From: Rhizobium sp. ZPR4
Lineage (GTDB): Bacteria > Pseudomonadota > Alphaproteobacteria > Rhizobiales > Rhizobiaceae
Assembly: GCF_040215725.1 (NCBI RefSeq)
Contig: NZ_CP157967.1
Location: 2,822,501-2,886,500 of the forward strand
Length of the DNA: 64,000 nucleotides
Direction: 5' to 3'
Part shown: positions 5,393 through 36,764 of the stretch, piece after piece
Numbering within the stretch: position 1 is the stretch's first letter
Layout of the letters: every line of letters begins with the position of its first letter
The notes under the pieces: generated by a model
Seen by the model: the letters and a program-made list of their open reading frames with translations, nothing else
Database searches by the model: none
Told to the model about the DNA's origin: nothing
Program-made: the position numbers and the translations under genes

Positions 5393-6268
5393 TTAATGTT
5401 GAAATTCAAACACAAGAACCCGGTCGTTCTGGCCGTAGTCACGAACCGCCTCGACAAGGGAAAATCCTGCTCCTTCAAAAACCGAAGTCACCGTTTCACG
5501 CTGATCGTAGCCGATCTCCACACCAATCATACCATTCGGATATAGAAATCGAGCCGCATCCTTTGCGATCGCCCTGTATGCATCCAGCCCATCAAGGCCC
5601 CCGTCAAGGGCCGCGGGAGGATCGAAATCCTTTACTTCTGGAGCGAGAGTGGAAATGACACTAGACGCAATATAGGGCGGATTTGAGACAATCACATGAA
5701 AACATCCGTGGATGGCTTCAAACCAGCTTCCTTGCGCAGTCCCGAACCGCGCCGCCAGGCCATTTCGCTCAGCGTTCCCGCGAGCGGTTTCCAGCGCCTC
5801 GCCGGAAATATCGGAACCTACACCCGTCGCTCCGGGGCATTCATGAAGCAGAGCCAGACAAATGGCCCCGGTTCCCGTTCCGATATCGAGTATATGGACA
5901 TTGCCGACTTTGGATTCAAGACGCCGCAGGTGCGGCAACATCGTATCGACAAGAATTTCCGTATCGGGCCGCGGTTCGAGCGTCGCTGCCGAAAGCTTGA
6001 GGGAAAGTCCATAAAACTCCCGCTCGCCGAGAATGCGATAGACCGGCTCATGTTTGAGCCGGCGGGCGATCGCCGCGCGTACCGCCGCGGCATCACCCTC
6101 AGACACAGGCTCGGAGCCATGTGTCACGAGCCCGGTGGCGGAAAGATACAGAAGGCCGCCGACAAGAATGCGGGCTTCCGTAGCGGGATCATCGAGATCG
6201 GCCTCGGCGAAGCGGGCGCGCACCTCCTGCAGGAGCCCGGATATGGTCGGCCGCTGCCCGCCGCTCAC
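5393..6268 (-). CDS. prmC: Peptide chain release factor glutamine N5-methyltransferase PrmC (HemK)
   Basis: 291 residues. PrmC methylates the glutamine of the GGQ motif in release factors, which raises termination efficiency. The N-terminal helical domain (about 1-90) is followed by a class I SAM-dependent fold with [15 protein letters not shown] for SAM binding and the diagnostic NPPY active-site tetrapeptide (VSNPPYIAS). The gene starts with GTG and overlaps the prfA stop by 4 nt (GTGA), so it is translationally coupled to its substrate. This pairing of enzyme and substrate is common in bacteria and supports both names. Confidence 0.96.
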
Positions 6269-17270: not shown

Positions 17271-17588
17271 CTATTGGCAGCCGCTGTCGGCACCATAACC
17301 CTGGACAATGCAGACCGAACCCGGTTCCTGCTGCAGAACGCTGCGGCGGATCGTATAACGCTTGCCGTTTTCCGTCTGCGGGATCGAACCCGTCGTAATA
17401 TTGTCAATATCCGGCGCACTTGCAAGCACGCGCGACTTCGATTTGTCGGAGAGCATCGGCGTGAGAATAAGCGAAAGCGCGACCGCCGCCGTACCGAACA
17501 GCAGAGCGATATTCAACGCGCCCGTCCTGCGCGACGTGGAATAGGACTGCTCTTTTTCCTGAACAGCTTTCCAGAAATCGTCGTCCAT
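17271..17588 (-). CDS. Small membrane protein, unknown
   Basis: 105 residues with one predicted transmembrane helix at about 25-43 (LNIALLFGTAAVALSLILT) after a charged N-terminus, suggesting a periplasmic C-terminal part. Two Cys residues near the end (VCIVQGYGADSGC) could form a disulfide. I do not recognise a family. It is upstream of the Flp pilin gene on the same strand, with 76 bp between them, so a link to pilus function is possible but unproven. Confidence 0.75.
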   Translation of the reverse strand: MDDDFWKAVQEKEQSYSTSRRTGALNIALLFGTAAVALSLILTPMLSDKSKSRVLASAPDIDNITTGSIPQTENGKRYTIRRSVLQQEPGSVCIVQGYGADSGCQ

Positions 17589-17975
17589 TATGTCAAGCCT
17601 TCTTTAACGCACCCAACAACCCGCTTGATTGAGAGAATTGAATGCCAGAAGGTCATAAACGATCCCTTAATATCCACATGCAAATTAATGAGACGTAAAA
17701 TTCTGGGACAGTGCGTGATTCGGCTTATGCAGCTGATTTCAAATGGCTAATTTTCGTTAACCATACTTACCGTGCGTTGCTGTTGTGCACACGAAACGTT
17801 GGCTTGGCGGGTTCAAAAAAGATGCGGCGCATCAACGAATGCCAAATCTCTTCAGCAGCAACACGCAATAGAACGGGTAAGCGCCTCAAACACCAATAAA
17901 TTGAGATTGACACTTGCCCGTCACGATGCAACTTATGCGGAAATTTTATCATCTTAAGTTGCAGAAGGCTATTGT
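17589..17975. other. Intergenic gap, no gene seen
   Basis: A 387-bp AT-richer stretch between two divergent small membrane-protein genes. Frames of about 60 codons exist on both strands but lack ribosome-binding sites and coding bias. It probably holds divergent promoters; no specific boxes stand out to me. Confidence 0.5.
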
Positions 17976-34536: not shown

Positions 34537-34621
34537 GCCCCATTGGCGGAATTGGTAGACGCGCTCGACTCAAAATCGAGTTTCGAAAGAAGTGCTGGTT
34601 CGACTCCGGCATGGGGCACCA
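34537..34621 (+). tRNA. tRNA-Leu (anticodon CAA)
   Basis: 85 nt with acceptor arms GCCCCAT (5') and ATGGGGC (3'), and a genome-encoded CCA end. The D-arm is GGCGGAATTGGTAGACGC, the anticodon stem CTCGA/TCGAG encloses the loop CTCAAAA, and the anticodon is CAA (reads UUG). A long variable arm (about 12 nt) is typical of class II leucine tRNA. The T-arm is GCTGG-TTCGACT-CCGGC. Transfer RNA 3' ends are common integration sites, and an AT-rich gene lies immediately beyond. Confidence 0.95.
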
Positions 34622-34732
34622 TCTGTTCAGTGTAATCCTCTAGATATAAGCTATTTCGGCGACAAGCTACTTTTAAAAGTTCGAGCGAGAAGAAAGCCTA
34701 GCCCACCAATAGATCGTTGCATTTCAATATGC

Positions 34733-36520
34733 CTACTCCTCGTCAATCATATCAAAAACACGTGTAAAAGCGGAAAACTCCTCTGAAGTCCCGTTTGCAA
34801 TAATCCAGTCGGCAAGATTCCGTTTTTCGTCGCGGTTAAGCTGCCACTCCTCCTGAACATCTACCGGCTGTCCTCGAATGAATTTTTGATAGCCAGGCGA
34901 TATATCGAAGAATTCAGGCTTTGCAGCTCTGGCTCTTTCAAAAAGGCTGTCAGGAAAGAGGTTCTCTATCCCAGTTTTGATCTTACCTTGTTGCAAAGGA
35001 AACCTAAACCTGCGCACTCCAGGCTTTTTCTCGTTATGCTTGTTAATATCGCAATCATACAACAGCGTAACATTCTGATTGATCAATGCAGACATTGGAC
35101 CATCAAAGTATTTCCAGATTTTATCGAGTCCACCGTAGCCGTTTGCATCCCGCAATCCTGCGGTTGCGAAGCTAGCATTGCGGCCAAGCAATTCTGCTGC
35201 CCTTTGAAGGTAGTCGATATCGATGCTGCCTTCGACGAATATTAGAGGTTTCTGACTTTGGGTTATCGCCTCGCGCACATCATTTTCGTAACGAACGCTC
35301 TCCTTCAAAAAGGAATAAGCCTTCTCGAACTCCGCAAAGCGCTCAACGCTAATTGACTTTCCTGACGGCAATTCAACCACATCAAACCCGTCCTGACCGA
35401 GAACTTTTTGGAGACCAAGGATAAAAAGCGGAGAATGGCTCGCTAATATAAACTGCACTCTGGGAAACAGTGAAATTAGGTTTGGGAGTATCGTATGCTG
35501 CAATTCTGTATGGAGGTGTAGGTCAACCTCATCTATTATCGCCAGCCCGCGGATATCCGAAAGTGATGTGAAGTTGCCCGTGGCTACGTCGTGATCCCTT
35601 ACTAAGGTCAGGAATATGTTCAAGAGACCGGTCTGGCCGGTGGACAGGCTAAAAAGATTTGATGTTACGTTAACGTCATCAATGCTGATGCCAATCTGCC
35701 GCCGACCCCTGCCACCTACGGACCACCTTACGCTTCCTTCGCGTTGTAAAAGCGTTTTAATAAAGCGCTCGATTTCATGGAGCAGTTTTGTCGCAGGTCC
35801 ATTCGTCTGTGCAAACACCGGAAAACTGTTCCCGGGTAGACCAATCGGTATCATTTGGACGGTATGTTCGACGCCGAATCGATCGTAGATAACATCTAAG
35901 AGCCAATTCTGATTCTCTCTGAGAGGCGAGTAATTTATTACGTGTCTATTGGATGCTCCGGTAGTTCTAGTAAGTTGCAAATAGTTTACATTGTTCAGCA
36001 AGTTTTCCCGATTGAGCCAAGCTGGCTCTTCAAAGCGGTTAGCCGGAAAATGAAGCAATGTGAATCTTGAGAGAATTTCTTCAATTTTCTTAGGATCAGC
36101 ATAGAAATTCGTATGGAGTATGGACCCTTCCTTTGGGGATATTGCATTCCACAAAGGCTTGACCGATGTTAAACCAAACTGCTCCTCTACATTTTCCCTC
36201 GAACCTATAAGTTGTATTTCAGCCACCGTGAAATCATCTGAGAATTTTAGCTCCGTAAACGAGAATTGTGAGCCGTGGCTGACATAGAGCGGGGATCGGA
36301 ACTTATAAACTTTACCCTTTTCCACCTCAGCGTCTGTAAAAGCCGCGTCTTTGGCGATAAGCATAGCATTTACCAGATGGGATAATATGATGCTTTTTCC
36401 CGATCCATTCTGACCCACAAAAACGACAGGCTTAGGCATTTCATTGGCGGCAAAGGGAAAATTGTAGTTTATCAGTGGAAGCGGTCCGTAATTTTCAATT
36501 TCCAATGACTTTAAATACAT
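34733..36520 (-). CDS. OLD-like P-loop ATPase with TOPRIM-like nuclease domain
   Basis: 595 residues, in AT-rich codons unlike its neighbours. An ABC-type ATPase comes first: Walker A GQNGSGKS (36-43), signature LSTGQTG (292-298), Walker B GLAIIDEVDLH with D330 and E331, and H-loop SHSP (361-364). The C-terminal part has the TOPRIM marks VEG (E430) and YDCD (D489, D491), then GIENLF (518-522). This matches overcoming-lysogenisation-defect (OLD) proteins, and resembles the AAA15 plus DUF4435 pair in PARIS. Such proteins often sense phage and cut nucleic acid; the role here is inferred. AGAGG precedes the ATG. It lies beside tRNA-Leu with no integrase, and no second defence gene is seen. Confidence 0.85.
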   Translation of the reverse strand: MYLKSLEIENYGPLPLINYNFPFAANEMPKPVVFVGQNGSGKSIILSHLVNAMLIAKDAAFTDAEVEKGKVYKFRSPLYVSHGSQFSFTELKFSDDFTVAEIQLIGSRENVEEQFGLTSVKPLWNAISPKEGSILHTNFYADPKKIEEILSRFTLLHFPANRFEEPAWLNRENLLNNVNYLQLTRTTGASNRHVINYSPLRENQNWLLDVIYDRFGVEHTVQMIPIGLPGNSFPVFAQTNGPATKLLHEIERFIKTLLQREGSVRWSVGGRGRRQIGISIDDVNVTSNLFSLSTGQTGLLNIFLTLVRDHDVATGNFTSLSDIRGLAIIDEVDLHLHTELQHTILPNLISLFPRVQFILASHSPLFILGLQKVLGQDGFDVVELPSGKSISVERFAEFEKAYSFLKESVRYENDVREAITQSQKPLIFVEGSIDIDYLQRAAELLGRNASFATAGLRDANGYGGLDKIWKYFDGPMSALINQNVTLLYDCDINKHNEKKPGVRRFRFPLQQGKIKTGIENLFPDSLFERARAAKPEFFDISPGYQKFIRGQPVDVQEEWQLNRDEKRNLADWIIANGTSEEFSAFTRVFDMIDEE

Positions 36521-36566
36521 TTCCGACCTCTTTGTGCTCGCTTGAAAGCGAATCTTTCACAATACA

Positions 36567-36600
36567 ATGCTAAGTTTAGTATTAAGATACAGCAACATTA
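36567..36600 (-). promoter_or_regulatory. Candidate promoter of the OLD-like gene
   Basis: On the minus strand TTGCTG and TAGCAT are spaced 17 nt; an imperfect palindrome (36567-36582, with CTAA/TTAG core) covers the -10 end. A second short inverted repeat (TGAAAG/CTTTCA, 36543-36559) follows before the ATG. Weak evidence, given for checking. Confidence 0.35.
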
Positions 36601-36764
36601 TTTTAGAGCTGGATATTTCAGAGGTAATCACGTGGCATGAAAGCCATCACACCCTCACATCATCACGAAAAATTTTGCCTTTCCGCCATTTCCGTCAGCC
36701 CCCGACCATTTACAGCCATATTCCTGCCCCCTAAAGGTTTGCAACGCAGCAAAAAGGGGCCTTC

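Follow-up and report, generated by a model that had tools for sequence, protein, structure and literature searches.

A solitary ATPase-TOPRIM gene in a variable tRNA-Leu slot of Rhizobium sp. ZPR4, a candidate single-gene anti-phage system

ATPase-TOPRIM proteins are usually filed under OLD, with DNA cutting expected of them, and the AbiL / RloA-RloB pairing includes a TOPRIM of the RloB type. Class 1 OLD systems are described as single genes (PMC10568477). In the class 2 enzyme Bp OLD, residues E400, E404, D455, D457 and E508 are reported to coordinate the metals or metal-bound waters, K562 plays a helper part, and T506 is also used (PMC6755086). IbfA and HEC-04 have been described as defence proteins of ATPase-TOPRIM build encoded by a single gene (PMC12111858), OLD-ABC proteins linked to a TOPRIM are described in general terms for BREX loci (PMC12839542), and 11 uncharacterised OLD clades (U1-U11) are listed in PMC12796447. 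As for RNA, Septu PtuAB cleaves tRNA-Tyr (PMC13096335), PARIS cuts tRNA-Lys once Ocr is sensed (PMC12409363), and the TOPRIM of Retron-Eco2 is an RNase whose activity needs E374 and D378 (PMC12405507).

The DNA analysed here (the window) is a stretch of 64,000 nt from Rhizobium sp. ZPR4 (NZ_CP157967.1, positions 2,822,501 to 2,886,500, forward strand). It contains a rare and recently acquired ATPase-TOPRIM gene which probably encodes a self-contained phage defence. With moderate confidence, we propose a single-gene anti-phage system in which a PtuA-type ATPase would be the sensor and an Eco2-type TOPRIM domain would cut RNA on phage sensing.

The gene and the variable slot at tRNA-Leu(CAA)

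The following features define the locus.

34537..34621, plus strand: tRNA-Leu(CAA), whose CCA end bounds the variable slot on the left
34622..36661, no strand: foreign cargo of 2040 bp, GC 0.44, which fills the variable slot
34733..36520, minus strand: ATPase-TOPRIM gene, 595 aa, ORF with ATG start
36662..36677, no strand: right edge motif ATCACGAAAAATTTTG, conserved among close relatives and lying 5' of the next gene (36765, plus strand)

The gene is on the minus strand with its 3' end towards the plus-strand tRNA-Leu, and therefore the two are convergent; 111 bp lie between its stop codon and the tRNA CCA end, in agreement with the first-pass annotation. Six bases 5' of the ATG a ribosome-binding-like AGAGG was recognised by eye, and five promoter-like sites were counted by the gene, no excess over shuffled sequence (mean 3.4, sd 2.3). 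The two 1-kb intervals with most of the gene have GC of 0.465 and 0.475, against about 0.60-0.64 around. GC3 of the gene is 0.47, the mean of 52 ORFs in the window being 0.74 (sd 0.08), and its synonymous codon use is the least typical among these 52, which were picked by script at 150 aa or more and of which some may be spurious. The low GC and foreign codon use ascribed earlier to this 595-residue gene were thus borne out (GC about 0.47 vs about 0.61; first codon outlier of 52). Two other ORFs, at 17274-17747 and 5396-6268, also show atypical codon use (GC3 0.53 and 0.58) and were possibly acquired too.

Within the cargo, the ATPase-TOPRIM gene is the sole ORF of at least 90 aa kept by the script. 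BLAST homology to the window ends at 34621-34623 in all four relatives' loci that reach the tRNA. For the wider comparison, 41 relatives were taken from the 147 other genomes of the genus by a match reaching the right flank, five more distant congeners standing outside this count; three of the 41 have no tRNA in the stretch, which leaves 39 loci including the window. The left edge was fixed at the tRNA CCA by script, and the right motif is partly selected because of the way the relatives were chosen. Across the 39 loci the interval measures 78-2974 bp with GC of 0.44-0.58. None of the 38 relatives repeats the six bases that follow the CCA in the window, and ATCACGAAAA on the right is kept in 33 of the 39 loci.

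A slot ORF of at least 90 aa exists in 35 genomes, of which 16 have a cargo protein in common with another and 19 (the window included) do not. From the 57 cargo ORFs, ten were chosen for a Pfam scan, in part for a defence-like look, and several received defence or toxin-antitoxin labels. GmrSD_N was detected in two genomes, in one of them together with an FRG protein matching PADLOC PDC-S15; the rest were a HipA-like kinase with DUF3037, ParA-like, SocA/Panacea and Fic proteins, and two without family, and no integrase was found among these ten. Hotspots of gene turnover have been described before (PMC5635113), and the tRNA-Leu slot is a useful spot to seek more small defence genes in the genus.

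No closed site, with the tRNA CCA joined to the right motif at up to two mismatches, was found in 148 genomes. The right edge reads CACC/ATCACG (edge at the slash) in 16 of the 39 loci, all among the above 33, and this is not the window's own edge (36655-36662). The CACC/A edge resembles the tRNA end GGGGCACCA; it may be a recombination core, or merely conserved flank or chance. For this copy of the slot we rejected an att-type repeat in which the right edge would echo the 3' end of the tRNA: the two slot edges have no direct or inverted word of 9-14 bases in common, and relatives resemble each other there only by the short CACCA. In contrast, the more distant congeners L171, L173, L174 and L176 contain an interval of about 3.4 kb with normal GC (0.58-0.61) and the same large membrane-protein gene, labelled by eye; therefore the variability of the slot belongs to the closer clade.

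Conserved motifs and the nearest relatives of the two halves

An alignment of 95 rows was built from the query and its relatives (41-58% identity, from the 120 best matches listed). The motifs, all on the minus strand, are as follows.

36392..36415, minus strand: Walker A GQNGSGKS, residues 36-43; G36, G39 and K42 in 95/95 rows
35627..35647, minus strand: ABC signature LSTGQTG, residues 292-298; S293 and G295 in 95/95 rows
35522..35539, minus strand: Walker B IIDEVD, residues 328-333; D330 and E331 in 95/95 rows
35429..35440, minus strand: H-loop SHSP, residues 361-364; H362 in 95/95 rows
34736..35278, minus strand: C-terminal TOPRIM region, residues 415-595, from the PADLOC RT-Toprim_I-C match and hhalign
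35219..35233, minus strand: EGxxD, residues 430-434; E430 and D434 in 95/95 rows
35048..35056, minus strand: DCD (DxD motif), residues 489-491; 95/95 rows
34955..34972, minus strand: GIENLF, residues 517-522; G517, E519 and N520 in 95/95 rows
34823..34825, minus strand: K566; 95/95 rows

The ATPase and TOPRIM-like motifs read from the single sequence were all recovered in place, and the identity of their key residues in every row is beyond chance; it follows that this is a real, constrained and apparently complete enzyme family. E519 is likely a further metal ligand of the TOPRIM site and K566 likely the catalytic lysine, the proposed counterpart of K562 in Bp OLD. No conserved residue answers to T506 of Bp OLD; at position 516, 58 of the 95 rows carry K, 27 carry S and 3 carry T.

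The first-pass annotation also suggested that an insert of about 250 residues interrupts the ATPase and may hold the sensing function. We rejected a special insert, since the gap from Walker A to the signature is 233-261 residues in 92 of the 95 rows (those with both motifs found) and is the usual spacing of the family. The Walker spacing of the query (K42 to D330) is also similar in size to that of the Septu EcB88 PtuA (K43 to D316, PMC13096335).

In the query, Pfam gave only generic ATPase families above cut-off (AAA_21 and AAA_15). When the profile of 30 relatives was searched against PDB, PtuA-type ATPases, from Septu and from retrons Ec78/Ec83, matched best (E 1.5e-22 to 5.7e-13), followed by AriA (4e-6) and then OLD 6p74 (0.009, residues 317-470). 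The likeness to PtuA runs mainly over the motif regions, and the NCBIfam PtuA model scored the query at 64.5 bits vs a cut-off of 500 bits. PtuA-type models were also the best PADLOC profile matches, again over motif regions, among the best 25 of 96 listed. On these profile matches, the ATPase half appears closest to the PtuA type.

Pfam detected no TOPRIM family in the query; PF20469 (OLD-like_TOPRIM) did not match it, and among 30 relatives it matched six within an E-value limit of 1, with 0.013 as the best. Searched against PDB by phmmer, the C-terminus alone returned nothing meaningful. Against PADLOC (E up to 10, with filters that drop weak matches), the C-terminal 206 residues matched RT-Toprim_I-C only (four models, best E 1.9e-4). 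By hhalign, residues 415-595 scored 68.8 with distant family members (shuffle maximum 17.3), 48.7 with four RT-Toprim C-termini (19.0) and 28.2 with nine OLD TOPRIMs (16.2), with 20 column shuffles per target as controls; the target alignments are small (four RT-Toprim sequences) and single-target E-values are uncalibrated. These targets came from 4 of 12 RT-Toprim loci and 9 of 10 OLD loci. The close members used were 13 of 16, L008, L015 and L017 having no regex match for the TOPRIM motif, and L020, L024 and L028 were excluded for broken frames. Two other kinships were rejected: DUF4435 (AriB type; 7 of 14 loci used) gave 18.8 vs a shuffle maximum of 22.7, so that the kinship to DUF4435 raised in the first-pass annotation did not rise above shuffled profiles, and RloB (7 of 12 loci used) gave 13.0 vs 20.5, each with seven proteins.

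In 299 genomes the RT-Toprim_I-C model matched 60, mostly over the RT part as read from the ranges. It also matched two distant family members at positions 308-524 and 299-524 (E 2.9e-25 and 1e-22), whose open frames are identical to those of the family search. An unrooted tree of 26 TOPRIM domains (the query and 13 close members, eight distant members and four RT proteins) separated three groups, with support of 100/100 for the close, 100/99 for the RT-Toprim and 77/85 for the distant group. EGxxD corresponds by order and spacing to E400/E404 of Bp OLD and to E374/D378 of Retron-Eco2. By sequence profile the C-terminal half is a TOPRIM, and its nearest characterised kin is the RNase domain of the type I-C retron (Retron-Eco2), ahead of OLD.

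The family also has a second, longer branch (L023, L025-L027, L029 and L190-L192), with 641-692 aa where the frame is complete; its ATPase is related, and its TOPRIM is still closer to that of retron type I-C.

The profile match to OLD proteins is co-linear over residues 261-492, with the VEG and DxD motifs aligned, and E430, D434, D489, D491, E519 and K566 follow the order and the four-residue step of the catalytic set in Bp OLD (PMC6755086). Taken with the ABC-then-TOPRIM order and with the single gene, like class 1 (PMC10568477), this would suit an OLD class 1-like DNA nuclease, in which the ATPase regulates a nicking or exonuclease attack on phage DNA. We regard this main rival as unlikely, considering that the TOPRIM profile scored 48.7 with the Eco2-type RNase against 28.2 with OLD and that the Pfam OLD-like_TOPRIM model reaches few family members and not the query.

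No RT domain was found in the protein by Pfam, and the RT-Toprim model PDLC02965 had no match in its own genome. Rfam gave only the tRNA and a sub-threshold match antisense to it, and on these three results we rejected the presence of retron RNA or of an RT here. A full-length model for the protein was absent from Pfam, NCBIfam, PHROGs and the best 25 of 96 PADLOC matches, phrog_3940 of PHROGs spanning residues 3-498 weakly (E 2.2e-8). By these searches, this is an ATPase-TOPRIM family without a model in the libraries covered and without a reverse transcriptase or HNH partner. Our searches of the open-licence PMC literature showed no paper that names a fusion between an ATPase of PtuA type and a TOPRIM of Eco2 type; the family may be one of the OLD clades of PMC12796447 or belong to the BREX-locus proteins of PMC12839542. 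The first-pass annotation placed the protein with the kit shared by OLD, GajA and AriA/AriB. Its ATPase-TOPRIM enzyme stands, but the likeness to those systems is secondary, with PtuA and retron I-C nearer by profile.

Distribution and neighbouring genes

The gene was found in one of 148 genomes of the genus, that one being its own, and was absent from the one other genome of the same species. Together with the atypical codon use, this supports the horizontal acquisition proposed earlier. At E up to 1e-30, and with the own genome counted, the family is present in at least 1 of 394 genomes of the taxonomic family and at least 4 of 398 of the phylum, in samples where only the top few candidates were scored in many genomes and members may be missed. 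Relatives exist in several phyla, and on plasmids of Acetobacter, Leptolyngbya and Acinetobacter (45%, 30% and 32% identity), while the enterobacterial rows among 24 plasmid matches cover 13-19% of the query. An alignment scan of viral contigs revealed a full-length relative (L117) on a prophage contig with a phage integrase adjoining; a close-relative scan of viral contigs gave nothing useful, and four phage records matched, none with 80% coverage.

The single copy in the genus, the low GC and the promoter-like sites not above shuffles might suggest that the gene is a mere passenger of the slot, inactive or unexpressed. The frame is full-length, however, with the ribosome-binding-like AGAGG and all motifs intact, and we consider a passenger improbable. 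A housekeeping role like that of the archaeal OLD protein Cran1, which acts in the cell cycle (PMC12796447), is more improbable still for a gene of one genome in 148 that is missing from the other genome of its species.

Neighbours were clustered within 6 kb in 20 family loci, and no constant partner was revealed. Only Hsd genes recur in unrelated loci (three loci), while L021 and L022 have their whole surroundings in common; the remaining clusters looked at are frames that overlap the family gene or Hsd genes on the opposite strand. With no other slot ORF of at least 90 aa and no constant neighbour, the one-gene unit described at first reading holds.

Several relatives lie in restriction-modification (R-M) settings. 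In L012, L013 and L016 the gene follows type I HsdS and HsdR lies downstream, as the adjoining gene in the case of L016. In L019 an NgoPII-type nuclease stands on one side and a C5 methylase on the other, with an overlap of 4 bases, and in L015 the gene follows an N6/N4 methylase gene. L017 contains a type ISP enzyme upstream and a weak HNH_5 match nearby, and L009 has a Cas1 gene in divergent orientation to the family gene. With eleven fixed query proteins, R-M genes were detected at 5 of the 20 family loci and at one of seven distant loci (L027); for comparison, they were detected at 6 of 57 loci with other AAA_21 ATPases and at none of ten control loci from the genus. A further scan, run on the family only and thus without control, gave R-M in 6 of 20 family and 2 of 7 distant loci (MmeI-type enzyme in L029). 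The R-M link is suggestive and not specific. A defence role appears plausible from the settings of the relatives, which include R-M operons, the Cas1 gene, plasmids and the prophage contig.

These settings bear on a guard of restriction, which would be the machine proposed here with a named trigger: the ATPase half would sense anti-restriction proteins and the nuclease would abort infection. The HsdS/HsdR, NgoPII/C5 methylase and methylase or type ISP loci fit such a guard, and PARIS provides a precedent in Ocr sensing (PMC12409363, PMC12839542). But no R-M gene was found in 14 of the 20 family loci, for which part of the neighbours were scanned, R-M genes accompany other AAA_21 ATPases too (6/57), and the window gene itself is flanked by an MFS transporter (MFS_1) and a VTT-domain-like protein, so a guard seems a rather doubtful reading.

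Proposed mechanism and comparison with known systems

In the mechanism we favour, the N-terminal half would be a PtuA-type (OLD-like) ABC ATPase that oligomerises, restrains the enzyme and senses infection. The C-terminal half would be an Eco2-type TOPRIM nuclease with a two-metal site of E430, D434, D489, D491 and E519 and the helper lysine K566. On sensing of a phage trigger, the TOPRIM half would be released to cut RNA, most likely tRNA; translation would halt, and the infected cell would release no phage. Since Septu PtuAB and the Eco2 TOPRIM act on RNA, and the remoter PARIS does too, an ATPase-gated TOPRIM RNase is favoured. In Septu the nuclease is PtuB (HNH), and therefore a PtuA-like ATPase alone does not predict RNA cleavage by TOPRIM; the OLD TOPRIMs also scored above shuffles, so that DNA may be the substrate instead.

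We might speculate, tentatively, that the Eco2-type TOPRIM RNase is a module used in two chassis, one the retron with RT and msDNA and the other a stand-alone PtuA-type ABC ATPase. If true, the name 'RT-less Eco2' would suit the family: an abortive defence of one gene that cuts RNA, with an ATP-gated sensor replacing the msDNA. The type I-C retrons may have arisen from the ATPase fusion by a swap of ATPase for RT, or the reverse may have happened, the tree being unrooted.

Compared with Retron-Eco2 (type I-C), the TOPRIM is alike by PADLOC and hhalign with the same EGxxD spacing, the IE[ND] motif and a C-terminal stretch being also alike by eye, whereas the retron has an RT where the ABC ATPase stands here. 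PtuA-type ATPases (Septu, retrons Ec78/Ec83) gave the best profile matches among solved ATPases, over motif regions, but PtuA has the separate HNH nuclease PtuB as partner, and here a TOPRIM nuclease is fused in the protein; a PtuB HNH gene is absent from the slot and is not constant in the 20 loci. Class 1 OLD (P2 Old, T. scotoductus OLD) has the same arrangement, ABC and TOPRIM in one polypeptide from a stand-alone gene, and the catalytic order is alike, although sequence kinship is weaker in both halves. Gabija GajA (class 2 OLD) is alike in architecture and catalytic residues, but Gabija has a helicase gene, and none adjoins the ATPase-TOPRIM gene or is constant in the 20 family loci. With PARIS the protein has in common a weakly related ABC ATPase (AriA) and the sense-and-abort idea, whereas PARIS consists of two genes with a DUF4435 TOPRIM (AriB), and here there is one gene whose TOPRIM is not detectably DUF4435-like. 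IbfA and HEC-04, compared by description only, are alike in architecture and in one-gene defence. Judged by sequence, the protein is OLD-like in architecture, is passed over by the OLD TOPRIM model, and stands alone where Gabija, retrons, Septu and PARIS have their partners; it would connect Septu-like ATPases, retron effectors and R-M operons in one protein.
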